Assembly (NCBI GenBank): GCA_949152475.1
Contig: OX424561.1
Coordinates: 30,746,481 to 30,810,480 of the forward strand
Direction of reading: 5' to 3'
Source of the DNA: Terebella lapidaria
Lineage: Eukaryota; Annelida; Polychaeta; Terebellida; Terebellidae
DNA: 64,000 nt
A program made the translations under genes and the position numbers. Of this stretch, positions 2,624-35,152 are shown one piece after another. The first letter of the stretch is position 1. Each line of letters begins with the position of its first letter. The notes under the pieces were generated by a model. The model searched no databases and was not told the DNA's origin. It was given only the letters and a program-made list of their open reading frames with translations.

Positions 2624-4231
2624 CAGGGGCGGATCCAGGAATTTGAAAAGAGGGGGTCCAACATTATACGGCGTGGGGTCTGGGGCCCGCTCAAGGGCCC
2701 CAGAAGCCAGAGCCTTTGTTCTGTCCTGTGGTAGCTTCCTGGTATCTCCTCAGTGTAAATCAAACTTCTTGCCCCTGGTGTATTTGCAAAAAAATTGTGA
2801 ATGAAGCGAGCCTGTCCCAGTATGGAGCCTGCTCAAGAGACCCTGAAGCCAGTTAAAGTTGATGGCATCTCCTGGGTATAAATTTCATTTGAATACCCAT
2901 TGATCGCCATACTTTCATAATAAATGCAAAATTAGCCCAAGGGCTAGACGGTTACCGGACAATATATATTTTAGATATTAGCCTTATGTCCCGTGACCTT
3001 GAAAATAAGGTAAATGGTCAATTCAAGGTCACGCAAATGTTCAGCATATATCATTTCTAGTATGTCCACAATTGATTAGTTAGCTGTAAAGTCGATAATA
3101 AGTGAGATATTAGCCATTTTGTGATCTGATCTTGAAAATGAGGTCGAAGGTCAAGTTCAAAATTATGAGCATATTCAGCATATCATTTCCTCCATGTTCA
3201 CAATTAATTCCTAAGCTGTGAAGTCGATAATAAGCGAGATATTGGCCACTTTGTCCTGTGACCTTGAAAATTAGGTCAAAGGTCAAATTCAAGGTCATGA
3301 CAATATTCAGAATATCATTTCCTATATGTTCACAATTGATTCCTAAGCTGTGAAGTCGATAATAAGCGCGGTATTAGCTGTTTTGTCCTGTGACCTTGAA
3401 AATGAGGTCAAAGGTCAAATTCAAGGTCACGAAAATATTGAGCATATATCATTTCCTATATGTCCACAATTGATTTCTAGTCTCTAATCTCAATATTAAG
3501 TGATATATTATGAAGGGCCCAGAAACCAGAGCCCTTTTTATGTTCTGAACTTATTTTGTGGCCTTCTCCTGGGAATAAATTGCACTTAGAAATTCATCGA
3601 TGACCATGTTCTGGAAAGTTTGTGAAAAATGTACATGTAGAAGGGAAGCTACACATTCGGGCCGTGGATCCTGGGTCCCGCACACACGCCCCAGAATTCA
3701 TAGCCTTCCTTATGTTCTGAACTAATTTTGTGGCCTTTCCTGGTATGGTTGAACTTAAGATTTCATTGATGACCATGTTCAGGAAAGTTTGTAAAAATGT
3801 GGAAGAGAAGCTGGACATTTGGGCCGGGGGTCTGGAGCCCACTGAAGGGCCCCATAAATCATAGCCTTTTTATGTTCTGAATTAATTTAGTGGCTCTCCT
3901 GGGTATATATTGCACTTAAAAATCCATTGATGATTATGTCCTGAAAAGTTTGTAAAAAATGTAGAATGGAATCTGCACATTTGGGTGGAGGTCCGGGCCC
4001 GCTGAAAGACCCCAGAAGTCAGACCCCTTTTTATGTCCTGTGTTAGCTTCCCGGTCTCTCATGAGTATACATTTCGAACAAAGTCACCATGATAAACTTG
4101 TTATTAAAGATGGTATTTTGACATCATTTTTTTTCGGGCAGGAAGGCTGAACCCGCCTATGTATATGTATTTTATTTTTTCGAAAAGGGGGGGTCCTGAC
4201 CCCAGTAACCCCCCCTCTAAATCCGCTACTG
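2624..4231. mobile_element. hAT-like (5-bp TSD) non-autonomous element, copy 1
   Basis: Ends CAGGGGCGGATCCAG (left) and, inverted, CAGTAGCGGATTTAG (right) are flanked by CTACT at 2619-2623 and 4232-4236. CAG...CTG ends with a 5-bp duplication fit the hAT5 branch of hAT. The interior is non-coding, with several diverged copies of a block containing GGGCCCGCTCAAGGGCCCCAGAAG-type sequence and an inserted half-site repeat at about 2929-3512. It is nested in the Harbinger-like element. Confidence 0.6.
2929..3512 (+). repeat. Half-site repeat family, truncated copy
   Basis: It starts with the family's 5' signature (AATTAGCCCAAGGGCTA, GGTTACCGGACAAT) followed by four units about 132 bp long. The units contain TGACCTTGA, AGGTCAAAGGTCA (exact at 3273-3285 and 3405-3417) and TCAAGGTCA. 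The right-hand part of the family is missing; the sequence passes back into the hAT-like element near 3512. Confidence 0.7.
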
Positions 4232-6609: not shown

Positions 6610-9473
6610 CTAAAATCGAACATCCGGTCTGTTTTTGATGTGTTCGGCGACATTCGGCAAAGCCCGGACACGGTCCATTAAGGCCGATAGTTTGGGGCAG
6701 GGAGCCACAATCTCGGGGCACAATGTCTGCATGAACTCAACCACTGAGAGAAGCTGCAGGTCCGCCCACGATAGCTGCAAGTCAAACAATACGCATGTAT
6801 TGTGCTGCCTGCTACGCGCTGACCCAATGGAACATGCCTATTACTAAAACCACTGCTTGTACTGACAGTGTTCGAATTGTTCGAATCAAATTAGGTGTGG
6901 CGCGAAATATTACCTTATCTCCGACCAGAAAAGCCTCCCCATTATTGTTCTTGTTCAGGAAAGATTCGATGTTCGCAAAATGAGTGTCAGCGGTCTTCTT
7001 GAATTCTTCCAGCTTCTTCATCTGTCAACAAAAAAAGTCACAATCATATTATCCAATAGGCTTAGGGTTGATGAAACACGTGGAACATAATTACTATATC
7101 CCGAAGGCTGAGGGCTATTTAAACATGTACAACATGATTACACTATCCAGTAGGCTTAAGGCTATTTAAACATGTACAACGCAATTACACAATTAGGCTT
7201 AAGGCTATTGAAACATGTACGACACAATTACAATATCCAGTAGGCTTTGAGCAGGTGAAACATGTACAACACATATATCCAGTGGGCTTAAGGCTACTGA
7301 AAGACGTAACAGACAATCACACGATCCAGTAGGCGTAGAGCTGGTGGAACATGTACAACATAAGCACGCTATCCAGTAGGCTTGGAACTAGTGAAACATA
7401 TACAACACATGTACAACAATACACTCAGTATGACACTTTTGTCATGATACAACGGTCTGGTGACTGATCTGTTTTAACGTTGCTCCGGTGAATGTCATGC
7501 ATCAACACAGTCCAGCTGAACACGAGAGCTAACCGACCTTTTCTTGCTCGTCCTTGATGAACATGACAGTGACGCCAGCCTCCCGGACCTCTGTCAGCGT
7601 CTCGGCCAGGGAATCTATCTGGAGCGTTTCTAGTGGTGTTCTTCCATCGAGCCCTGGTGACATACATTACACACGGTTAACGCTCCCGTGTCGGCACTAG
7701 CCTTTCACCAGACGGTCGTCATGACTACCAGTCCTATGTGGGCGCCACCCTGTCACCACACTGTCGTCATGGCTACCAGTCCTATGTCGGCACTTCCCTG
7801 TCACCACACTGTCCTCATGGCTACCAGTCCTATGACGGCACTACCTGTCACCAAACTGTCGTCATGGCTACTAGTCCTATTTCGGCACTACCCTATCACC
7901 ACACTGTCGTCATGGCTACCAGTTCTATTTCGGCACTACCCTGTCACCACACTGTCCTCATGGCTACCAGTTCTATTTCGGCACTACCCTGTCACCAAAC
8001 TGTCGTCATGGCTACCAGTTCTATTTCGGCACTACCCTGTCACCACACTGTCCTCATGGCTACCAGTCCCATGTCGGCACTACCTGTCACCAAACTGTCG
8101 TCATGACTAGCAGTCCTATTTCGGCACTACCTTGTCACCACACTGTTGTCATGGCTACCAGTCCTATGTCGGCACTAACCTGTCGCCACACTGTCGTCAC
8201 GGCTACCAGTCCTATGTCGGCACTACCCTGTCATCACACTGTTGTCATGGCTACCAGTCCTATGTCGGCACTACCCTGTCACCACACTGTCGTCACGGCC
8301 ACCAGTCCTATGTCGGCACTACCTTGTCACCACACTGTCGTCACGGCCACCAGTCCTATGTCGGCACTACCCTGTCACCACACTGTCGTCACGGCCACCA
8401 GTCCTATGTCGGCGCCACCCTGTCACCACACAGTCGTCACGGCTACCAGTCCTATGTCGGCGCCACCCTATCACCACACTGTCGTCATGGCTACCAGTCC
8501 TATGTCGGCACTACCCTGTCACCACACTGTCGTCACGGCTACCAGTCCTATGTCGGCACTACCCTGTCACCACACTGTCGTCACGGCTACCAGTCCTATG
8601 TCGGCACTACCCTGTCACCACACTCATGTCATGGTTGTCCAGGATTTTTTTTAACAGACCCAGTATATGACACTGTTTGATAGGAAACTGCACTGGAGGG
8701 TCGTACTCTAGTTGCGATCATACACCAGTACATTTGAATATTGGAACATATTCTGTGGTGTTCCGATGAGAGGGATGAGATGTTACCTGCTAGCTTGGCG
8801 AGATACCGAAATATGGCCGGTCCCTGGTCCACCTTAACTCCATCTACCTCTAACACTGGTAGTCTTCCGAACGGGTAGTCTGCAAAAGCAAGATCACAAA
8901 CAGGCAATCACATCGTCGGACTATCATCCGCCATTGATATTTTATACCAGAATCTATCGTTTCAGAAATCATTTCAGATAGATCTATGCATTTATGTCAA
9001 GAGCCTACTGGACATATGTAGAACATTATCGCCTTTGCTACAAAATATATGCGCATAAAATACGTTTTTTATATAAAAAAAGGGTTTGGCCAGTAGGCCT
9101 TAAGCTCTGTATCAAAGCATCCGCTCGGTATATATTCTAATTAGCAAAAAAATTGGATTTGGTTTCTAATCATCCTATTTAGAAAATATTGAATCATGCG
9201 TACACTGAGACGTATATACATGATAAACAAAATAAAATATATTAGCATATTAATGACGTGTCTTGGGGTGATCCTACCTTTCTTGACTCCAGCCCACTGG
9301 TCAAAGCCGATCCTGTTGTCTGTGTATGCGATGTCCCCGGCGGCACAGATCAGACGTGCCGTCTCCCCGCGGGCCTGGGCATTGAAGTAGTGAAACACGA
9401 GTACCGGCCGGGAGCTGTGCTTGTGGGATTTGTACATCTTGCTCGTATCATATGGAGATGGTTGCTGCTGCAT
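6610..9473 (-). CDS. Glutathione S-transferase, sigma class (five exons)
   Basis: Exons on the minus strand: 9473-9278, 8879-8787, 7653-7538, 7021-6914 and 6774-6610. All introns are GT-AG, and the 678 coding bases join in frame to 225 residues plus a TAG stop. The start ATG is at 9473; a second ATG 12 codons later is possible. Sigma GSTs conjugate glutathione or isomerise prostaglandin H2 in the cytosol. The thioredoxin-like N-terminal domain has VLVFHYFNAQARGE with catalytic Tyr29, the cis-proline motif RLPVLEVDG (71-79) and VDQGPAIFRYL (82-92). The C-terminal helical domain ends KLSWADLQLLSVVEFM and NVAEHIKNRPDVRF. The length fits the class, with a somewhat long N-terminus. The usual Gln-Ser that binds the glutathione gamma-glutamyl group is Gln84-Gly85 here. 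Introns 2 and 3 hold minisatellites. It resembles HPGDS-type enzymes, but substrate cannot be inferred. Confidence 0.9.
7045..7415. repeat. Minisatellite of ~48 bp in GST intron 3
   Basis: About eight diverged tandem units with the recurring words TATCCAGTAGGCTTAAGGCT and GAAACATGTACAAC. They lie between GST exon 4 (ends at 7021) and exon 3 (starts at 7538). Confidence 0.8.
7690..8640. repeat. 48-bp minisatellite in GST intron 2
   Basis: About 20 tandem units of 48 bp (some 47) built from ATGTCGGCACTACCCTGTC, then ACCACACTGTCGTCA, then GGCTACCAGTCCT. Because 48 is a multiple of 3 and the unit has no stop in several frames, long repetitive open frames arise, but the array lies wholly inside an intron of the opposite-strand GST gene. 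The right half is more homogeneous than the left half. Confidence 0.9.
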
Positions 9474-13712: not shown

Positions 13713-15129
13713 AAAAAATTAGGCCAAGGGCCAAAGATAGGTTACCGGACAATGTTTAATATTTTAGATGTTAGCCAGGTCACTGGTCAAATTCAAGGTC
13801 AAGAGAATATTCAGCATATATAATATTAAGCATATATCATGTCCACAGTTGATTGCTAAGCTGTAAATTCAATAATCAGAGAGATATTAGCAATTTTGTG
13901 CTGTGGCCTTGGAAATGAAGGCAAAGGTCAAATTCAAAGTCATCAAAATATTCAGTGTATATCATGTTCTATATGTCCACAATTGATTCCCAAGCCATTC
14001 AGTCATTAGAGGAGCAAGATAAGTTTGTCCTTGGACCTTGAAAATGAGGTCAGAGGTCAAATTCAAGGTCACGACAATATTCAGCATATATCATTTCCTA
14101 TATGTCCACAATTGAGTCCTAAGCTGTAAAATCGATAATAAGTGAGATATTAACCATTTCGTCCTGTGACCTTGAAAATGAGGTCAAAGGTCAAATTCAA
14201 GGTCATGACAATAATTTGAATATATCATTTCCTATATGTTCATAACTGATTCCTAAGCTGTAAAGTCGATAACAAGCAAGATATTAGCCATTTTGTCCTA
14301 TAACCTTGAAATTGGGGTCAAAGGTCAAATTTAAGGTCATCAGAATATTCAGCATATATCATTTCCTATATGTCCACAATTGATTTCTAAGCTGTAGAGT
14401 CGATAATAAGCAAGATATAAGCCATTTTGTCCTGTGACCTTGAAAATGGGGTCAAAGGTCAAATTCAAGGTCATCAGAATATTCAGCATATATCATTTCC
14501 TATATGTCCACAATTGATTCCTAAGCTGTAGAGTCGATAATAAGCGAGATATAAGCCATTTTGTGCTCTGACCTTGAAACTGAGGTCAGAGGTCAAATTC
14601 AAGGTCACGAGAATAATCAGCATATATCATTTCATATATGTCCACAATTGATTCCTAGTCATTAATCTCAATATTAGGTGAGATATTAGGCATAATGTGT
14701 CCCATTATAAAGCATAGGAGAATTTAACATGGGAAAGTCCCATTTGGGCCGAGTTTGGGACAAAATGGCCCACTTCGAGCGATTCAAGCGCCACGAAATT
14801 TATGGATATCATAGGAGTACATATGAAGAGTGTTATGTATCAAAAAGAAAAAAAGTTACTGAACAGATTTTGAGAAAATGGCCGCCAAATCCAAAATCAG
14901 GCATTTTTCGTCGAAAATGGCCGCCATTTTGAAAATAATGCGAAAATCAAAAAACTAAAAAATACTTCCTTCTTGAATTATTTTTAAGTATTTTTGTGCG
15001 AAATTTCAGAAAAATTCGCCCGTAAACAAGAAAGATAAAAATGTGAACGACGACGGACGACGGACGACAGACGACGGACGCAACGCCATGCCAATAGGTT
15101 ATCGGACCATAGGTCCGGTAACCTAAAAA
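13713..15129 (+). repeat. Half-site repeat family, near full-length copy
   Basis: The 5' end reads AATTAGGCCAAGGGCC and GGTTACCGGACAAT. Seven units of about 133 bp follow (near 13775, 13908, 14032, 14166, 14300, 14434, 14567), each with TGACCTTGA, a GGTCAAAGGTCA-type pair and TCAAGGTCA. Then comes a unique 3' part with several AAAATGGCCGCC words, a GACGACGGACGACGG run, and an end hairpin (TTATCGGACCATAGGTCCGG). Short open frames inside carry no known domain. At least five more copies or parts lie in this window. Confidence 0.8.
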
Positions 15130-19022: not shown

Positions 19023-19079
19023 TATGACTTCACATAACTGTCAACTGGGTTTTGCAGTACACAACAAGAATATAGATAC

Positions 19080-20014
19080 TACGGTGGCTCCAATATGACA
19101 TAATAATTTTTTATATTTACGATAATAAAAATTTTCTGAGGGACTTTACCGAGAAGGTTTAAAATAATCTAATTGGCGGGGGAAACGTTTACCCCACGAG
19201 AAAAACTATTTCCCCCGTGAGGGGAATGTTTTCCTTGAGAGGAAAATGTATTCCCCACGAGGTAAACTATTTTCCGTGTGAGGAAAATGTTTCCCTCATG
19301 AGGAAAATGTTTTACCCGCAAAAAAACCAATTTCCCCCGTGAGGGAAATGTTTCCCTCGCGAGGAAAACGTTTACCTCGCGAGAAAAACTATTTCCCCCC
19401 TGAGGGAAATGTTCTCCTTGCGAGGAAAATGTATTTCCCGCGAGGTAAACTATTTTCCCTGCAGGGGAAATGTTTCGCTCGCTAGGAAAACGTTTACCCC
19501 GTGAGAAAAACTATTTCCCCCGTGAGGGAAATGTTTTTCCATGTGAGGAGAATGTTCCCCTCGCAAGGAAAATGTTTGACTCGCTATGAAGCAGGATAAA
19601 TGTTTTCCTCACGGGGGAAATAGTTTTCCTCGCGGGGTAAATGTTTTCCTCGCGAAAGAAACATTCCCCCTGCAGGGAAAATAGTTTAACTCGCAGGGGG
19701 AAATGTTTTCCTCGCGGGGGAAATGTTTTCCTCGCGAGGGAAACATTTCCCCTGCAGGGAAAAGAGTTTACCTCGCGGGGGAAATGTTTTCCTCGCGAGG
19801 GAAACATTTCTCCTGCAGGGAAAATAGTTTAACCTGCGGGGGAAATGTTTCCCTCACGAGGGAAACATTTCCCCTGCAGGGAAAATAGTTTACCTCGCAG
19901 GAGAAATGTTTTCCCCATCAATTAGATTATTTAATATTTTGTTCACAAGGCCCCCAACAAAATTTTTATTATTCTAGAAAAAAATATTTATTATGTCATA
20001 TTGGAGCAACCGTA
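19080..20014. mobile_element. TACGG-family TIR element with inverted minisatellite core (A)
   Basis: The ends TACGGTGGCTCCAATATGAC and its inverse (GTCATATTGGAGCAACCGTA) are flanked by an exact 6-bp duplication, AGATAC (19074-19079, 20015-20020). The inverted arms run about 100 bp. The core (about 19165-19915) is some 36 units of 20-21 bp, each a CTCGCGAG-, CCTGCAGG- or GTGAG-type GC block plus an AT-rich spacer such as GAAAATGTTT; the left half reads mainly in one orientation and the right half in the other. There is no transposase. Short frames through the core are by-products of the 21-bp period. Confidence 0.75.
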
Positions 20015-20829
20015 AGATACAACTATTCGCAAAATCTCTCACTTAAGGATATTTCCACAACTGTTAAATATACAACTGCACCAAACTTGCAATTTGTTAT
20101 ACTGATGTAAATAAAAGATATGGATACGCCTACATACCTTAATATGTCTTGAGTATCCATATCAATTAGGATTCTTTTATCAGACATTCAGCCTTCGACT
20201 TCACATATCTGTCAACTGGATATTGAAGTACACAAATGAAATACAGATTCCACTGCAAATATCTCTCACCCAAAGATATTGGTATCATTGAAACCATAAC
20301 TACACTGAACTGACAATTTATTGTACTGATGTATGTACCAAATATCCTCACATGGCATTTATGAGTTTCCCAACTTAGGGTATAATTATAGATGTTGAAT
20401 CTGAGAACTGTTTTACTGGTGTGTACCATAAATATAGAAATAGCAAATTGTAATTAGTTAAGCTCCCAAAGGTATTGTTACAGTATTGAAAATATAACTT
20501 CATATAATTGAACATTTTATACCCTAGATATATATACATCCATTTGTAACGTATTATGTTTTCCTAACCAATGGTTCATTTACAATTACTGAAACTGAGA
20601 ACAGCTCTTCTGGCTTGTATTAAAATAGATGCATTTCTATTAAGTTTGCAATCTATTAATTTGCAATCTGAATTTGCAATCTATTAAGTTCCCCAACCCA
20701 ATGTGTTGTTACAGTCATTGGAACTATGACCTCATATGACTAACAATTGTATACCAAAGATATTACTGACAATTGTTATACCGAAGATATATATACAGCC
20801 ATTTGTAATTTAATATGTTTCCCAACTAA

Positions 20830-21873
20830 GGCCACACCAATTTATAAAGTTGGTCTATGGATTTTTGTCCGAGAAAAATCGTACGTGGGAGCGACATTTT
20901 TTTTACATTTAATACTAAATTTTTTGTCTTTGGAATATTTCACTTGAAAAATGGTGCGAGCGATATATTTTTTTTTACAAACAATTTCTGTCTTTGGAAT
21001 TTAGATTGCCAAAATTTGTGCGAGGGGTTTTATTTTAAATGATAAGTTATGTATTTGCCGCTTATTTTGACAGTGTGTTCGACCGTCATGACCTTAAAAA
21101 ATATAAATTGGCCAGTTTGGCGGGAACTAGGATCATTTAAACCAATTATAACCTGTTCTCTTCTCTGTTAACCATTCTATATAGAGGTTGTATGGGTAAA
21201 TTTTAGTAAATGAACAATTCATTATGTATTTTTTGCCTTTTTGCACAGTAAATGGTTTAGAAATTTGTGAACGGTTTTCAATGTGTCATGTTAAATTACA
21301 TGTCATGTTTTTGATTATGCAATTAAATTTTGTCTAAAATAACGAAGTATTGCAGTATTACTGAGTAAAAATCCAAACTTACCTGCTGTGTTCAAATAAC
21401 TATAGGTAGATATATAGATGTATACGTTTTAGAAGAATTATCTATCCCAAGATACTATTATTTAAGCTACGGAAGATTTTTGCAATCCAATTAGAATAAA
21501 TACGTTTAAACTAAACTTTAAACTATATTCTGTTAAAATCATGTATATCAACATTTCACGCCAGGCAAACGAGCCCGAAGCGGTGCCAAAGGCCCAAAAT
21601 GCAGATATTTTTTGCTTACAGGTGATCCTGTGTAGTGTTGGCACACAATGATTCAAACAGTTCCTCTGGAAACGTCGATACTGACTCTTTAAATGCGATT
21701 TTCTGACAACCATTTGGATGAATTCAAACTGTGATTTTGATTTGGGGCAAAAACTAAGTTGTCGATGGATTTCATTAGCCCAAAATTGGTGCGGCGATTT
21801 TTTTACCGAAATTTTGAGAATGAATTTTCAGGGGCGGCGATTCCATCGACCAACTCTACATATTGGTGTGGCC
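20830..21873. mobile_element. 1.04-kb TIR element with GGCC ends (Harbinger-like?)
   Basis: The left end GGCCACACCAATTTATAAAG and the right end, inverted (GGCCACACCAATATGTAGAG), continue with GTTGGTC, giving arms of about 33 bp. The flanking triplets are TAA and TAT, so a TWA duplication is imperfect. GTGCGAG/GGAGCGAC motifs followed by T runs lie near the ends, as in the element at 1955-4445. No transposase. Confidence 0.55.
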
Positions 21874-22048
21874 TATACCTTCAGGGTATACCTTCAGTTA
21901 TTGAAACTGAGAACTGAAGCTCCCCAACCAAAGGTATTGTAACAAATATTAAAACTATGATTTCATATAACTGACAATTGCTATTCCAAATATATGTATA
22001 TAGCCAATTGTAATTTATTATGTTTCCCAACTGAGGGCATATTATACT

Positions 22049-22198
22049 CGATGTCTTCTAAACGCTGGTACACTGGTATGCTGGTACAAGCATTGCAAGG
22101 TGCATGAACTCAACAATACTGCTCATTTCGTGTATGCCTCAATAAGCCTCACAATGCTTGTACCAGTATACCAGCGTACCAGCGTTTAGAAGACATCG
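22049..22198. mobile_element. 150-bp palindromic MITE with 9-bp duplication (MULE-like), copy 1
   Basis: The arms start CGATGTCTTCTAAACGCTGG and contain repeated GCTGGTA words. The 9-bp flanks TATTATACT (22040-22048) and TATTACACT (22199-22207) differ at one base. A 9-bp duplication is typical of Mutator-like elements. Confidence 0.75.
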
Positions 22199-23360
22199 TA
22201 TTACACTGATGTGTGTTGTACTAATGTACACCAAAGATATAGATACAACCTTTGTGATTTATTATCCTTCCCAACTATGGGTACTTTCAAAGTTATTGAA
22301 ACTGTGGCACTGATATTGTACTGATGTACACCAAAGATATTTATTATGTTTCCCGACTAAGGGTGTATCTATATTTATGTGTAATACAAAGTTGTATTGA
22401 TTAAATGGTTATTGTTGCCCAAACCCAACATCCTATTATTGTGCTCAGTTGCTAGGTATATAATTCTCTCCACATCTACTCTTATACCCCGTTTGTACAC
22501 CGGGCGTCCCAGCAGTGAGTTCAGTCTGTGAGTAATTATCGGCTATAAAGCTGGGTCCTTTTTTGTATTGTGTCAGATTTACCTGCTCGGCTGCACCAAC
22601 TGCTTTGAATTTTTATCCCGCCCCATCCCTCCCATGCTGTTTCATGTATTGATCATGTGTTTCAATTGTAATTGTATACACACATTATGAATACTTAATT
22701 ATTCTTAAGTTTTCAAGTTGAAACGTAGTCAGTGTTCTTCTTGTCATTTTTAACTATATACACAACTGTCATTACAAAACCTCTTATCTCGTGTGGGTAT
22801 TTTCTGTGTCATTTTTGTCTAGTTTTACATTATAATTGTATTATGTCATATGTGTAGTTTTAGTGTAATAAATCACTTCGCCCAATTCACGATTTGTTGA
22901 AATTTGTATATTTTAGCTCAATCTATAACCATTTATGTATCTTTATCGCATATACCTGATAAGTGTTGTGCTGATGTACACTAGAAATATAGATACAGCA
23001 TTTTGTAATTTCCTAATTTTCCAACCGAGGGCATATTATAATTATTCAGTCTTCGATCAGATACGTAACCTATCTGATATGTCCATAGCAAAATTTCTGA
23101 TGTTTGGTAATGTTAAAATGTATGTCAGTTTCTAGTACACATAATTAACCTATCTGATATGTCCATAGTAAAATTAGAGTCATTCCCATATATTCAACCT
23201 ATGTCAGTATATTTATTACATCTTTATCTCATATACCTGATAAGAGTACTGATGTACTCCAAGATATATTATGTTTTACAACTAAGGGTGTATTTTTATT
23301 CGTTGCATCTTTATCTCTTATACCTGATAATTGTTGTACTAATGAACACTAGAGATCTTT

Positions 23361-23510
23361 CGATGTCTTCTAAACGCTGGTACGCTGGTATACTGGTACA
23401 AGCATTGTGAGGCTTATCGAGGCATACACGAAATGAGCAATATTGTTGAGTTCATGCACCTTGCAATGCTTGTACCAGCATACCAGTGTACCAGCGTTTA
23501 GAAGACATCG
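23361..23510. mobile_element. Palindromic MULE-like MITE, copy 2
   Basis: Same 150-bp palindrome as 22049-22198, flanked by an exact 9-bp duplication GAGATCTTT (23352-23360, 23511-23519). Confidence 0.8.
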
Positions 23511-23739
23511 GAGATCTTTGATCTCCTATAACTATGAATGTTTAAAATTGATAATTGTTGTACCAATGAACACCAAAGCTATAATACGGCTATTTGTTAT
23601 TTACTAAGTGTGTTGTATAATTCAAACAGTCACCATATGATCCTCATGCGTTATCATAATGTCTGTATTCACTAAATGTCTGTCATGTCGACAAATACTT
23701 TACTCTTCCTATCTCTGGGAATAAGTGTCAATATATTTT

Positions 23740-26088
23740 ACCAGGATAGTATCATGTTTGCGTGTATATCAAGGTCAAACAAATATGTAAAACATCAACC
23801 TTGGATTACAAAGGGATTGCTGATATCATCACTTCGTAAAGAGAAGTTATATAAGCTCAAACTACGGAAACCTTCTACAGAAAATATTGGGACATACAAA
23901 TTATACAACAATATACAATAAACTAACAAAACTCGTTAAAAGACGACACTACGCTGACAAACTTGTAAATACGATATAAAGCAATCTTGGAAAGTTCTGA
24001 AACAAGCACTAAACACACAAAATAAAAATCAAGAACTCCCCAGCTCTATGATAGTAAATAATAAACACACCGAGGATTCATACCTGATCTCGCTTTCAAC
24101 GACTACTTCACTAATATAGGAAATAATATATGTACTCAAATAAAACCCCCAGATCAGAACTTTGAAATTAATCACATAAAAATGTACAAGATTCCATCTT
24201 TTTGCAGCCAGTAACACCTATGGATATATTCGCGGCTGTCAATAAACAAAAACCAAAATGGAGCAAAGGTTTTGATGGTATTTCCACTAAAATTATGAAA
24301 TTATCAATACTAGAAATCGCAGATATACTAACTCATATTTTTAACCTAAGTATTAAGACTGGAGTATTCCTCAACAATATGAAAACTGCCAAAGTAATCC
24401 CAATCCATAAATCTGAAAATAAAAACGTTATAGTAAACTACAGGCCAATAAGTATCCTCCCAGCATTTTCTAAGTTACTCGAAAGGATAATATATAAACA
24501 ATTATTCGTATTCTTAACTCATAATAATGTTCTATATAACCATCAATATGGTTTTCGACCCAAACACTGAACCATTCATCCGTTACTCCATTTAATCAAA
24601 GACGTAACTGAATTCAATAATAAGCCTCCAAAAGATATTACCCTTGTAGTATTCTTAGACCTTAGTAAAGCGTTCGATAGTCTATCACACGATATCCTAC
24701 TTTATAAATTGGAAAAGTATGGCGCTAGAGGTTTAGCAAACAACTGGTTCAAAAGTTACTTATCTAATCGTAAACAATATGTACAATACAACAATACAAT
24801 GTCTGAATGCATGAATATCAAATATGGTGTACCTCAGGGATCAATCTTAGGACCACTACTCTGTATACATTAACGATATGCCGATGTCTACCACATTAAA
24901 TATATTGTCTTTCGCAGATGACAGAACTACGGAGCCCCTGAGGTGACATACCAGATATATTTATTAATCCGTGCGCACGAATTAGTAAACCGTGCACACG
25001 AATTAGTAAACCGTGGCCACGAATTGGTAAAATGTGGCCACGAATTAGTAAACCGTGGCCACGAATTGGTAAACTGTGCACACAGATTACCTCAACTAAT
25101 CTGTAGGCATGATTTAACAATCCGTGAGCACGATTTAATAATTCGTGGGCACGATTTAACAATTCGTGCGCACGATTTAACAATTCGTGAGCACGAATTA
25201 GTATTTCGTGGCCACGGATTGGTATAACTAATCCGTGGGCACGATTTACCAATTCGTGGGCACGAATTAATATTCCGTGCCCACGAATTAGTAAATCGTG
25301 CCCACGGATTGTTAATTCGTGGCCACGAATTGTTAAATTGTGCGCACGGTTTGGTAAATTGTGCGCACGGTTTGGTAAATCGTGCGCACGGATTGGTAAA
25401 CCGTGCGCACGGATTGGTAAACCGTCATGTCGGTAAACCGTGCGCACGAATTAATAAATATTTTCGGTATGTCATCTCAGGGGCTCCGTACAGAACCGTA
25501 TACACTTCTCGAAGCAATATATCTAACATGCACAGTTACATCAATAGAGAATTAAAATCATTATCAAACTGGTTCAGAACAAACAAACTGCTGCTAAATG
25601 TAAACAAAAGTAGTTATATGATATTTTCACAAAAACACAACCTGGTTATACAAACTGAAACAAATATTTTTATTGACGATTCACCCGTCCGCTGTATTAA
25701 CAACACATCAAATAAAAAGGTGAAATTTCTCGGTATAAAACTCGATCCAAAGCTTAACTGGAATGCACACATTAATCACCTATGTACAAAATTATCCAAA
25801 TAATTATATATGCTTAACAAAGTCAAACATGTACTTCCATGTCATGCATTGAAAACCATATATTTCTCATTGACTAACTGTCATCTGACATATGGGATAC
25901 TCGCATGGGGAAACTGTAAAAGAACGAATACAATTTTCAAGTTTCAAAAACGTGCTGTACGTATCCTCAATAAATCTTCCTACACCTCGCACACGGAACC
26001 TATTTCTAGAAAATATAATATATTGAAACTTCACGACTTACATACCCTGCAGTCCCCCCTTTTCATATACATAGTTTGTCATTTTTAA
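23740..26088 (+). mobile_element. CR1/Jockey-like LINE, copy 1 (truncated, interrupted)
   Basis: The reading order fits a LINE reverse transcriptase: HQPWITKGLLISSLRKEKLY, then [57 protein letters not shown] and the catalytic FADD. A 563-bp element is inserted directly after FADDR. The LINE resumes at 25497 with VYTSRSNIS, FLGIKLDPKLNWNAHI and HLTYGILAWG. Several stops and frame changes exist, for example a stop after FRPKH. It ends abruptly at about 26070 at the duplication junction. Confidence 0.85.
24928..25490. mobile_element. TACGG-family TIR element with palindromic 21-bp core (B), copy 1
   Basis: The ends TACGGAGCCCCTGAGG and its inverse are flanked by CAGAAC (24922-24927, 25491-25496). 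About 23 units of 21 bp follow, each a palindromic 10-mer (CGTGCGCACG, CGTGGCCACG or CGTGGGCACG) plus an 11-bp AT-rich spacer. Removing it and one duplication restores the LINE reading FADDR-TVYTSRS. The heptad-like open frames within are by-products of the 21-bp period. Confidence 0.85.
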
Positions 26089-26695
26089 CTATATACACAA
26101 CTGTCATTACAAAACCTCTTATCTCGTGTGGGTATTTTCTGTGTCATTTTTGTCTAGTTTTACATTATAATTGTATTATGTCATATGTGTAGTTTTAGTG
26201 TAATAAATCACTTCGCCCAATTCACGATTTGTTGAAATTTGTATATTTTAGCTCAATCTATAACCATTTATGTATCTTTATCGCATATACCTGATAAGTG
26301 TTGTGCTGATGTACACTAGAAATATAGATACAGCATTTTGTAATTTCCTAATTTTCCAACCGAGGGCATATTATAATTATTCAGTCTTCGATCAGATACG
26401 TAACCTATCTGATATGTCCATAGCAAAATTTCTGATGTTTGGTAATGTTAAAATGTATGTCAGTTTCTAGTACACATAATTAACCTATCTGATATGTCCA
26501 TAGTAAAATTAGAGTCATTCCCATATATTCAACCTATGTCAGTATATTTATTACATCTTTATCTCATATACCTGATAAGAGTACTGATGTACTCCAAGAT
26601 ATATTATGTTTTACAACTAAGGGTGTATTTTTATTCGTTGCATCTTTATCTCTTATACCTGATAATTGTTGTACTAATGAACACTAGAGATCTTT

Positions 26696-26845
26696 CGATG
26701 TCTTCTAAACGCTGGTACGCTGGTATACTGGTACAAGCATTGTGAGGCTTATTGAGGCATACACGAAATGAGCAGTATTGTTGAGTTCATGCACCTTGCA
26801 ATGCTTGTACCAGCATACCAGTGTACCAGCGTTTAGAAGACATCG
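26696..26845. mobile_element. Palindromic MULE-like MITE, copy 3 (duplicate of copy 2)
   Basis: Copied with the tandem duplication; the same GAGATCTTT flanks are present. Two single-base differences from copy 2 are visible in the centre. Confidence 0.8.
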
Positions 26846-27074
26846 GAGATCTTTGATCTCCTATAACTATGAATGTTTAAAATTGATAATTGTTGTACCA
26901 ATGAACACCAAAGCTATAATACGGCTATTTGTTATTTACTAAGTGTGTTGTATAATTCAAACAGTCACCATATGATCCTCATGCGTTATTATAATGTCTG
27001 TATTCACTAAATGTCTGTCATGTCGACAAATACTTTACTCTTCCTATCTCTGGGAATAAGTGTCAATATATTTT

Positions 27075-29650
27075 ACCAGGATAGTATCATGTTTGCGTGT
27101 ATATCAAGGTCAAACAAATATGTAAAACATCAACCTTGGATTACAAAGGGATTGCTGATATCATCACTTCGTAAAGAGAAGTTATATAAGCTCAAACTAC
27201 GGAAACCTTCTACAGAAAATATTGGGACATACAAATTATACAACAATATACAATAAACTAACAAAACTCGTTAAAAGACGACACTACGCTGACAAACTTG
27301 TAAATACGATATAAAGCAATCTTGGAAAGTTCTGAAACAAGCACTAAACACACAAAATAAAAATCAAGAACTCCCCAGCTCTATGATAGTAAATAATAAA
27401 CACACCGAGGATTCATACCTGATCTCGCTTTCAACGACTACTTCACTAATATAGGAAATAATATATGTACTCAAATAAAACCCCCAGATCAGAACTTTGA
27501 AATTAATCACATAAAAATGTACAAGATTTCATCTTTTTGCAGCCAGTAACACCTATGGATATATTCGCGGCTGTCAATAAACAAAAACCAAAATGGAGCA
27601 AAGGTTTTGATGGTATTTCCACTAAAATTATGAAATTATCAATACTAGAAATCGCAGATATACTAACTCATATTTTTAACCTAAGTATTAAGACTGGAGT
27701 ATTCCTCAACAATATGAAAACTGCCAAAGTAATCCCAATCCATAAATCTGAAAATAAAAACGTTATAGTAAACTACAGGCCAATAAGTATCCTCCCAGCA
27801 TTTTCTAAGTTACTCGAAAGGATAATATATAAACAATTATTCGTATTCTTAACTCATAATAATGTTCTATATAACCATCAATATGGTTTTCGACCCAAAC
27901 ACTGAACCATTCATCCGTTACTCCATTTAATCAAAGACGTAACTGAATTCAATAATAAGCCTCCAAAAGATATTACCCTTGTAGTATTCTTAGACCTTAG
28001 TAAAGCGTTCGATAGTCTATCACACGATATCCTACTTTATAAATTGGAAAAGTATGGCGCTAGAGGTTTAGCAAACAACTGGTTCAAAAGTTACTTATCT
28101 AATCGTAAACAATATGTACAATACAACAATACAATGTCTGAATGCATGAATATCAAATATGGTGTACCTCAGGGATCAATCTTAGGACCACTACTCTGTA
28201 TACATTAACGATATGCCGATGTCTACCACATTAAATATATTGTCTTTCGCAGATGACAGAACTACGGAGCCCCTGAGGTGACATACCAGATATATTTATT
28301 AATCCGTGCGCACGAATTAGTAAACCGTGCACACGAATTAGTAAACCGTGGCCACGAATTGGTAAAATGTGGCCACGAATTAGTAAACCGTGGTCACGAA
28401 TTGGTAAACTGTGCACACAGATTACCTCAACTAATCTGTAGGCATGATTTAACAATCCGTGAGCACGATTTAATAATTCGTGGGCACGATTTAACAATTC
28501 GTGAGCACGAATTAGTATTTCGTGGCCACGGATTGGTATAACTAATCCGTGGGCACGATTTACCAATTCGTGGGCACGAATTAATATTCCGTGCCCACGA
28601 ATTAGTAAATCGTGCCCACGGATTGTTAATTCGTGGCCACGAATTGTTAAATTGTGCGCACGGTTTGGTAAATTGTGCGCACGGTTTGGTAAATCGTGCG
28701 CACGGATTGGTAAACCGTGCGCACGGATTGGTAAACCGTGCGCACGAATTAATAAATATTTTCGGTATGTCATCTCAGGGGCTCCGTACAGAACCGTATA
28801 CACTTCTCGAAGCAATATATCTAACATGCACAGTTACATCAATAGAGAATTAAAATCATTATCAAACTGGTTCAGAACAAACAAACTGCTGCTAAATGTA
28901 AACAAAAGTAGTTATATGATATTTTCACAAAAACACAACCTGGTTATACAAACTGAAACAAATATTTTTATTGACGATTCACCCGTCCGCTGTATTAACA
29001 ACACATCAAATAAAAAGGTGAAATTTCTCGGTATAAAACTCGATCCAAAGCTTAACTGGAATGCACACATTAATCACCTATGTACAAAATTAACCAAATA
29101 ATTATATATGCTTAACAAAGTCAAACATGTACTTCCATGTCATGCATTGAAAACCATATATTTCTCATTGACTAACTGTCATCTGACATATGGGATACTC
29201 GCATGGGGAAACTGTAAAAGAACGAATACAATTTTCAAGTTTCAAAAACGTGCTGTACGTATCCTCAATAAATCTTCCTACACCTCGCACACGGAACCTA
29301 TTTCTAGAAAATATAATATATTGAAACTTCACGACTTACATACCCTGCAGTCCCCCCTTTTCATATACGACTATCTAAATAAGCGCCTTATAAACACTGC
29401 ATCAACTAAACGTGATTGCCTGTCAGCTGATTTGCGCTGCTTTCTGCGTCCCCTGGTAGGGACTGTACACTCCCACAGTCTTCCATACTGGCCGGGATAA
29501 CCTCGGGTCTCCCATCCAGATCGGGTTATATTTTCTCATTTGTAAATACGTTCATCCAAGGGTCAGCACGGGAAGACAGCCCTGCTACGTGCTGGGCATT
29601 TTTTGTTTACTCTGTATTACTGCTGATGAAATAAAGATTATTATTATTAA
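27075..29650 (+). mobile_element. CR1/Jockey-like LINE, copy 2 with 3' end
   Basis: Same reverse transcriptase pieces and the same inserted element as copy 1. Here the 3' side continues (DYLNKRLINTASTKRD) to a tail GATGAAATAAAGATT followed by ATT repeats near 29628-29650, the usual form of a CR1-type 3' end. It is dead: stops and frame changes are shared with copy 1. Confidence 0.85.
28263..28788. mobile_element. TACGG-family element B, copy 2
   Basis: Duplicate of 24928-25490, shorter by about two core units (526 against 563 bp); otherwise almost identical. Confidence 0.85.
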
Positions 29651-34040: not shown

Positions 34041-35152
34041 AAAAAAATTAGCCCAAGGGCTAAGAAAGGTTAACGGACAATATATATTTTAGATATTAGC
34101 CGTTTGTCCCGGGATCTTGGAAATAAGGTCATTGGCCAATTCAAGGTCACGAGAATATTCAGCATACCCCGGTATATCATTTCTAGTATGTCCACAATCG
34201 ATTCCTAAGCTGTTTAGTCGATAATAAGTGAGATATTAGCCATTTTGTTCTTTGACTTTGAAAATGAGGTCAAAGTCAAGGTCACCAAACTATTCAGCAT
34301 ATCATTTCCTATATGTTCATTATGGATTCCTAAGCTGTAAAATCGATAATAAGCGAGATATTAGCCATTTTGTGCTCTGATCTTGAAAATAAGGTCAAGG
34401 TCAAATTCAAGGCCATCAAAATAATCAGTGTATATCATTTTCTATATGTCCACAATTGGTCCCCAAGCAATGAAGTCAATAGGGAAGCCAGATATTAGGC
34501 ATTTCGTCCTTTGACCTTGAAAATGAGATCAAAGGTCGAATTCAAGGTCAGCATATATCATTTTCTCTATGTTCACAATTGATTCCTAAGCTGTGAAGTC
34601 GATGATAAGCGAGATATTAGTCATTTTGTGCTTTGACCTTGAAAATTCAAGGTCCCAAGAATATTCAGCATATATCATTTCCTATGTGTCCACAATTGAT
34701 TCCTAGTCTCTAATCTCAAAATTAAGTGATATATTAGACATAATGTGTCCCGTTATAAAGCATAGGAGAATTTAACATGGGAAAGTCCCATTTGGGCCGA
34801 CTTTGGGTCAAAATTACCCTCTTCGAGCGATTCAAGGGCAACGAAACTTTTACAAATCACAGGAGTACATATGAGGAGTGTTATGCGTCAAAAGGAAAAA
34901 AAGTTACTGAACAGATTTTGAGAAAATGGCCATCAAAGTCCAAAATTGGCCATTTTTCGTCAAAAATGGGGCCATTTTGAAATAATAGCGAAAATAAAAA
35001 AACTGAAAAATACCTCCATTTTTGTGCAAAATTTCAGAAAAATTCGCCTGTAAACAAAAAAGATAAAAATTTGGATGACGACGACTAAACGACGACGACA
35101 GACGCAACGCCATGCCAATAGGTTATCGGACCATAGGTCCGGTTACCTAAAA
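34041..35152 (+). repeat. Half-site repeat family, full-structure copy
   Basis: The 5' signature TTAGCCCAAGGGCTAAG is followed by five more diverged units (near 34109, 34253, 34377, 34511, 34633), the GGCC-rich 3' part, GACGACGACTAAACGACG-like sequence and the end GGACCATAGGTCCGGTTACC. Confidence 0.75.

Follow-up and report, generated by a model that had tools for sequence, protein, structure and literature searches.

Small TACGG-ended elements of the annelid Terebella lapidaria share phased 20–21 bp arrays with large integrase-type transposons

The DNA analysed here, referred to as the window, is a stretch of 64,000 nucleotides from the annelid Terebella lapidaria (assembly GCA_949152475.1, contig OX424561.1, positions 30,746,481 to 30,810,480), in which we identified three short transposon-like elements designated A, B copy 1 and B copy 2 (Table 1). 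A previous description made from the letters of this DNA, the sequence-only reading, had reported two elements starting with TACGG(T/A)G, flanked by exact 6-bp duplications (AGATAC for A, CAGAAC for B) and filled by a core of 20–21 bp units. Starts and duplications were reproduced and both elements are real, but a third copy had been overlooked; exact 6-bp duplications flank all three. The elements have homologous 23-bp ends in common, and the homology extends far past TACGG. The end pattern TACGGNGNCNCNNANRTGACATA matched six times in the window at up to two mismatches (0.02 expected), a result obtained by design because the pattern was built from the ends of A and B, so that its rarity elsewhere is the real test.

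B copy 2 is not an independent insertion, because it lies inside a tandem duplication whose two copies are 98.7% identical. Just two gaps occur in the 3,330 columns of their alignment, both within the array; one comprises exactly 21 bp, equivalent to one unit, and the other 16 bp. A comparison of these duplicated arrays shows directly that units can be gained or lost once the element has inserted, and the suggestion that such arrays are renewed by slippage (or by unequal exchange) was borne out by this one case.

Table 1. Features of elements A and B and of the tandem duplication in the window
Feature	Positions	Strand	Remarks
Element A, non-autonomous, 935 bp	19080..20014	.	6-bp duplication AGATAC; ends homologous to B
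A left target-site duplication AGATAC	19074..19079	.	
A right target-site duplication AGATAC	20015..20020	.	
A left terminal inverted repeat	19080..19106	+	
A right terminal inverted repeat	19988..20014	-	
A array, mixed 20/21-bp units TTTTCCTCGCGAGGAAAATG, Fourier period 20.7	19176..19914	.	
Element B copy 1, non-autonomous, 563 bp	24928..25490	.	duplication CAGAAC
B copy 1 left target-site duplication CAGAAC	24922..24927	.	
B copy 1 right target-site duplication CAGAAC	25491..25496	.	
B copy 1 array, 21-bp units TTAGTAAACCGTGCGCACGAA	24961..25458	.	
Element B copy 2, 526 bp, tandem-duplication paralogue of copy 1	28263..28788	.	duplication CAGAAC
B copy 2 array, shorter than that of copy 1 by exactly one 21-bp unit and 16 more bp	28296..28756	.	
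Tandem duplication, first copy (3.3 kb), enclosing B copy 1	22741..26070	+	
Tandem duplication, second copy, enclosing B copy 2	26076..29368	+	

The periodic core was recovered in both elements. The best lag was 20 for A (match 0.53 versus a median lag of 0.22) and 21 for B (0.73 versus 0.23), and the period of A is mixed, as its Tandem Repeats Finder (TRF) periods of 20, 41 and 61 also indicate. Perfect 8-bp palindromes numbered 13 in A, 13 in B copy 1 and 11 in B copy 2, compared with means of 3.6, 3.6 and 3.4 in dinucleotide shuffles, of which 0 of 200 reached the observed count in each case. In the circular unit, the dyad comprised 0.90 (A) and 0.80 (B) of the possible pairs, with p values of 0.0024 and 0.0096. 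Each unit had been described as a short GC palindrome with a spacer; the dyad spans most of the unit, and it is clear in most but not all of the families described below.

Similarity searches of the genome (761.6 Mb in 438 contigs; C1, C2 and C9 are contig labels, L numbers are fetched loci) revealed at least 90 matching stretches for A (best 40 of 188 candidates scored) and at least 170 for B (best 40 of 663 candidates scored). A 22-mer end pattern matched 427 times on the forward and 428 times on the reverse strand, 855 times in all; as a control, the same pattern read backwards gave no forward and two reverse matches. From the fetched similarity and end-pattern loci we paired 48 distinct copies; loci L001–L038 are a biased set, having been retrieved as matches to A or B, and L039–L068 were located by their ends alone. 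An exact 6-bp duplication was present in 38 of these copies and one with a single mismatch in four more, and duplications of 7 or 8 bp were found in none. Position 1 of the 38 exact duplications was G, C or A in 36, position 3 was A or T in 37 and position 4 was A or T in 34. The best lag within the tested range of 12–30 was 20 or 21 in 48 of 48 paired copies, so that no paired copy without the array was seen; this includes all 12 copies paired from L039–L068 (smallest copy 178 bp). B copies tend to differ in length by multiples of 21 bp (circular R 0.78 at 21, n = 39).

To identify a transposase, we used the profile PF24764 (rva_4, integrase core), which we presumed to be a likely model for such enzymes and then tested by a genome search that returned at least 133 matches (best 150 of 246 candidates scored). 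One match lies between two facing B ends, in an autonomous B element of 12,502 bp (C1:45529028–45541529); an autonomous relative with its transposase between TACGG ends, which the sequence-only reading had suggested looking for, is therefore present in this genome. The element is flanked by AATTAT on both sides and its ends are identical at 24 of 25 positions. TRF detected 21.6 units of 21 bp in the left array (L075:162–615) and 18.1 units of 21 bp in the right array (L076:6117–6496), both with 85% match and 0% indels; 15% mismatch combined with 0% indels indicates that phase is kept while the sequence drifts. The transposase open reading frame (ORF) scored 89.5 bits against PF24764 (cut-off 26), adjoins the right end and is split over two overlapping frames in this copy. 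The transposon also carries a HECT-domain ORF (L076:2836–3705; 35.1 bits, cut-off 23.9), probably a ubiquitin-ligase-like passenger gene of an IS3EU-like element, and a second ORF (L076:1594–2505), and a small element of type D is nested inside it. Because the autonomous element has 21-bp arrays inside both ends, the core of the small elements corresponds to the subterminal array of a large element. The earlier idea of one non-autonomous lineage with a conserved phased array is correct in that several families share the period, but the array also occurs at both ends of autonomous elements.

Two other facing pairs of B ends were considered. The pair at L069, 9.7 kb apart, had no PF24764 match among those listed and no matching duplication, and was classified as two separate fragments; for a pair 13.3 kb apart (C1:4651457/4664709) no PF24764 match was present among the matches listed. 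The best-scoring PF24764 matches of the genome among those scored, L071–L074, may belong to another lineage or to host genes.

Three multicopy transposase families (L077, L078 and L079) were taken first, and an end together with a 20–21 bp array was found upstream of the transposase in all three. Their units are ATTAAATACGCGTACTTAAT (L077), AAACATTTTCGCTGCAGCTA with about 20.5 bp (L078) and TTATATCTCGATAATATCGAC (L079), and PF24764 scored above its cut-off in L077 and L079 as in B. In the L079 family, an exact end lies beside all four transposase copies among the matches listed, and three of the four have both ends; these elements measure 8,460–8,682 bp, two of the three with exact duplications (AAAAAC and CAAAAC). 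A complete element of the L077 family (C1:52942706–52953024, 10,319 bp) has the duplication CTATGG and an array at its far end (L107), and the counterpart of this array beside the transposase was observed in a different copy (locus L077); a further member, C2:34319383–34330582, also encloses its transposase and has a third, internal end at 34329301. In the L078 family, a TACAG end lies about 2 kb upstream in three of three transposase copies. Families A, B, C, D, L077 and L079 have TACGG ends, and all visible ends of B, L077, L078 and L079 are thus of the TACGG or TACAG type; autonomous members with different termini were not encountered among them. Complete elements of two families besides B span 8.5–10.3 kb. 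Flanks were read for five complete autonomous copies, four of which have an exact 6-bp duplication. Every autonomous element recovered in full has TACGG..CCGTA ends, arrays of mostly dyad-symmetric 20–21 bp units inside both ends and a transposase between them.

Twenty further families were chosen by hand from the PF24764 list, each a distinct copy whose match lies close to the beginning of the profile, and the stretch 350–1050 bp upstream of the domain was sampled. As an array we counted a period of 20–22, 40–43 or 60–63 with at least 2.5 copies and a score of at least 50 (table read by hand). Seven of the 20 families passed (L082, L083, L091, L094, L097, L098 and L099), five with clear arrays and L094 and L098 with weak ones, compared with 1 of 85 window tiles as background (Fisher p 2.4e-5). 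When four of the remaining 13 were extended further upstream, an array was revealed in one, L089 (L110). A TACGG end is present in L096 and L092, accompanied by two units or, judged by eye, by decayed ones. The D core was found in L097. The fetched sequence stops short of the element end in L082, L083, L091, L097 and L110. In total, ten families are clear, namely A (with C), B, D/L097, L077, L078, L079, L082, L083/L091, L099 and L089/L110, and all of them except A have their array upstream of a PF24764 match. The expectation of families with differing cores and a 20–21 bp period was thus supported by several families, whose cores are mostly dissimilar.

Two peculiar arrangements of ends were noticed in these families. 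At the end away from the transposase, the L079 family has an internal palindrome TACGGAAGCG..CGCTTCCGTA just inside the array which resembles two abutting ends (L100:550–575, L105:203–228). Around position 178 of L099, on the transposase-sense strand, two arrays are separated by a pair of TACGGAGCCCCT-type ends in head-to-head orientation, resembling a junction of two elements or of two ends.

Array periods of the ten clear families range from 20.0 to 21.5 bp. Fourier analysis gave 20.7 for A, 21.0 for autonomous B, 21.3–21.45 for D, 20.0 for L077, 20.55 for L078, 21.0 for L079, 20.0 for L082, 20.45 for L083, 20.35 for L091 and 20.4 for L099; L110 has a period of about 20.5 (TRF 41 and 20). 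Exceptions were B copy 1 (21.75, caused by phase breaks) and the short L098 (17.4), both with a lag maximum at 21.

The circular-unit dyad test, performed with units taken from the TRF consensus, yielded p values below 0.05 for A, B, L077, L078, L079, the D 43-mer, L098 and L110; a p value of 0.001 occurred once among the 18 control units. Combined over ten families with one unit each (A, B, L077, L078, L079, L082, L083, L099, the D 43-mer and L098), p was 9e-9, compared with 0.27 over 18 controls; within this set the units of L078, L099 and D were chosen among candidate units, and L110, L091, L094 and L096 were left out. Even-centred palindromes were clearly in excess in A, both B copies, autonomous B and L110 and weakly so in L077 (reached by 7 of 200 shuffles) and L078 (9 of 200); no excess was found in L079, L082, L083, L097 and L099 with this count, which is blind to odd or gapped dyads.

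The cores had been called unrelated, and indeed 38 of the 45 unit pairs among the ten families were no more alike than shuffles at p 0.05, although seven were. Left and right arrays of one family, which are 8–12 kb apart, showed unit identities of 0.95–1.0 in B, L077 and L079, and L083 and L091 share both unit and N-terminus. As the ends of one family share their unit while most family pairs are no better than shuffles, the motif appears to follow the transposon and not the host.

One small element illustrates how such copies may have arisen. L108 (C9:11663017–11663833) is flanked by the duplication CAATAC and has a left array of 12.5 units and an inverted right array of 11.1 units, between which a remnant of the first exon of the L079-family transposase was read by eye in reverse. 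L108 thus arose visibly by internal deletion with retention of both arrays, the classical origin of miniature elements, and the small elements in general are probably deletion derivatives of large ones with retained arrays.

An alignment of the transposases of four families revealed conserved HID, (A/G)D and QRIE blocks with common D, D and E columns (by eye). For the 125 N-terminal residues, seven helices were predicted with a predicted local distance difference test (pLDDT) value of 77, which we read as two helix-turn-helix-like bundles; the first of these matched Clr5 weakly (E 0.0058, below cut-off). The catalytic part of the L077 transposase, folded from 8 alignment rows, was modelled poorly (mean pLDDT 56).

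Several other repeats were recorded in the window. B copy 1 sits at the FADD motif (tttcgcagatgac) of an apparent reverse transcriptase (24900–24930, 25491–25540), and a degenerate retroelement surrounds it, both read by eye. Another element of about 150 bp with long inverted repeats and ends GATGTCTTCTAAACGCTGGTAC... occurs at 22049–22198, 23360–23510 (recognised by eye) and 26696–26845; the first copy is 100% identical to the inverted third, which lies inside the tandem duplication. A dispersed tandem repeat of 123–134 bp (AGGTCAAAGGTCAAATTCAAGGTCATG...) is found at 2973–3479, 13777–14657 and 34172–34705 and also on C1 loci (L076:720–1050, by eye; L113:2–308). Finally, a 48-bp minisatellite at 7689–8624 contains 19.5 copies with 91% match.

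IS3EU, Dada and Polintons had been named as groups in which 6-bp duplications are known, and of these IS3EU fits. According to the accessible text of PMC10045372, TA..TA ends are constant and 6-bp duplications usual among IS3EU families, which share a single lineage with GingerRoot and are given as being without the HHCC motif; for fungal IS3EU, the accessible text of PMC12730594 gives TAYGG..CCRTA ends. The elements described here resemble them in 6-bp duplications, TA..TA ends and an integrase-like DDE transposase between the ends, and their ends and duplications fit the IS3EU/GingerRoot superfamily, a placement proposed from these features. They differ in the two-turn palindromic array, which the accessible text of PMC12730594 and PMC10045372 does not mention, and in the HECT ORF accompanying the B element. 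A literature search found no combination of IS3EU with HECT and no description of two-turn phased arrays, most subscription papers and Repbase reports being outside the search; with the letters of arrays and ends, among the matches listed, only TACGGTGGCT was found, in papers unrelated by title.

Polintons are elements of 15–20 kb with genes for a protein-primed DNA polymerase and capsid proteins, Helentrons are rolling-circle elements, and the iterons of plasmid origins are repeats in direct orientation, about two helical turns long, to which the initiator binds cooperatively. A Polinton source was not supported: besides transposase and HECT, the 12.5-kb element contains further ORFs, and three of its ORFs were compared with Pfam. 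Iterons serve replication rather than transposition, and homology to them is not claimed. Dada, described in the accessible text of PMC3706591 as having no terminal inverted repeat and inserting into small RNA genes, was ruled out by the inverted ends of more than 20 bp and by the wide variety of duplicated sequences. The nearest working analogue is Galileo, a Foldback-like element of the P superfamily, which has transposase sites in long repetitive ends: the accessible text of PMC3688188 reports several transposase-binding sites in its long, internally repetitive ends, established by footprint and gel shift. Galileo differs in its THAP-domain transposase and in sites that are not spaced every two turns, the extra ones (561–577 and 701–718) lying about 140 bp apart. 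Satellite-like arrays are also held by mobile elements of bivalves, as far as the accessible parts of PMC8268682 and PMC7492417 go, and CgiSat35 and CgiSat47 are annotated as DNA/IS3EU in PMC8268682; their units are 690 and 129 bp, however, as opposed to 20–21 bp here, and the oyster case involves, by title, Helentrons.

Taken together, A and B are probably non-autonomous members of a lineage of large (8.5–12.5 kb) integrase-type transposons of the IS3EU/GingerRoot kind that carries iteron-like, family-specific transposase-binding arrays. Binding of the transposase to the arrays is suggested by the pattern of motif and spacing. The N-terminal region of the transposase would bind every unit, probably with a dimer seated on the dyad, and two-turn spacing would place consecutive dimers on the same side of the helix and so allow cooperative assembly, like that of a replication initiator on iterons. 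The assembled transposase would draw the element ends together, specificity being the product of many weak, family-specific sites and a short terminal cleavage site. The motif could drift along with its transposase, whereas the geometry of the protein chain would fix the spacing; slippage or unequal exchange by whole units would renew the array, and small elements would retain arrays because the transposase recognises them. A motif that is common to both ends of an element, but mostly not to different families within one nucleus, combined with a spacing common to all, favours such a dyad-binding, face-stacking transposase.

Several observations weigh against this interpretation. Phase in the window copies is imperfect, because many TRF rows over these arrays contain 1–8% indels, and copies of A do not clearly step in length by 20 bp (R 0.39 at 20.5, n = 37). 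An autonomous partner of family A was not found near 100 of 134 A end positions (those listed), the sampled upstream stretches of 13 of the 20 further families contained no array as defined above, and the four best-scoring PF24764 matches, L071–L074, have no TACGG array within 1.5 kb. A matching duplication was not found in the complete copy C9:10073841–10082411, in the small element L109 or in either D copy inspected by eye. The consensus dyad was not significant in L082 (0.06), L083, L091, L099, L094, L096 and single D units. The seven unit pairs more alike than shuffles compare with 2.3 expected; the similarity of D and L099 (0.70, p 0.001), which both contain GTTCCCTCG, survives correction, and the six others have p values from 0.0025 to 0.049. 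A search of the PDB with the N-terminal model returned 233 matches at E ≤ 10 and none at E ≤ 0.001, the best 50 being mostly ribosomal proteins with one paired domain (E 0.75); as none is significant, we make no fold claim for this region.

Alternatively, the arrays might bind a host protein, an architectural, replication or enhancer factor whose geometry sets the two-turn spacing. The great length of the arrays (18–22 units per end in autonomous B) and the location of the first array between end and transposase start, where a promoter would be, are in line with this idea. We nevertheless regard it as improbable: a host protein should prefer a single motif, yet most families differ in their unit while sharing it between their own ends, and the array is present also at the end without transposase. 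The common unit and N-terminus of L083 and L091 say little in this respect, as both may be copies of one family.

A similarly low probability is assigned to arrays being functionless products of slippage or unequal exchange, eased by palindromes and spread by small elements. Changes of exactly 21 bp and of 16 bp between the duplicated window copies, B lengths in steps of 21 and the satellite-like repeats described on mobile elements of the Pacific oyster in the accessible text of PMC8268682 are what such a process would produce. Passive slippage picks no period, however, yet ten arrays have periods of 20.0–21.5 bp, whereas the periods of the other tandem repeats in the window span 2–370 bp and equal 22 bp in three cases; the presence of arrays at both ends and the accumulation of mismatches but no indels in autonomous B also speak against it. 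Least likely of all is descent from one ancestral array whose period was inherited with no present constraint on spacing while its sequence diverged nearly beyond recognition, because, even though ends and transposases are homologous across families and a few unit pairs such as D and L099 keep some likeness, unconstrained indels should blur the period once substitutions erase nearly all similarity, whereas sharply defined periods of 20.0, 20.5 and 21.0 bp occur side by side and autonomous B shows 0% indels; given the residual likeness between some units, shared descent may still have contributed.

Compared with the transposase-binding role proposed for the arrays of A and B, a broader generalisation is put forward more tentatively, namely that an entire superfamily of DNA transposons in animals recognises its ends by geometry, with an iteron-like array at each end in which the two-turn phase is selected and the motif changes with the transposase. 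Ten arrays with mostly different motifs and one period would define a common structural principle of a transposon superfamily that has been little studied, and they likely account for many of the dispersed 20–21 bp palindromic repeats of this genome. The families represent natural pairs of transposase and array in which the joint change of DNA-binding specificity and binding sites can be tested, and they pose an assay-ready question on transposase assembly at long ends, namely whether phase and not sequence counts. If the generalisation is true, new families of new specificity could arise by concerted replacement of all units and would be isolated from cross-mobilisation.

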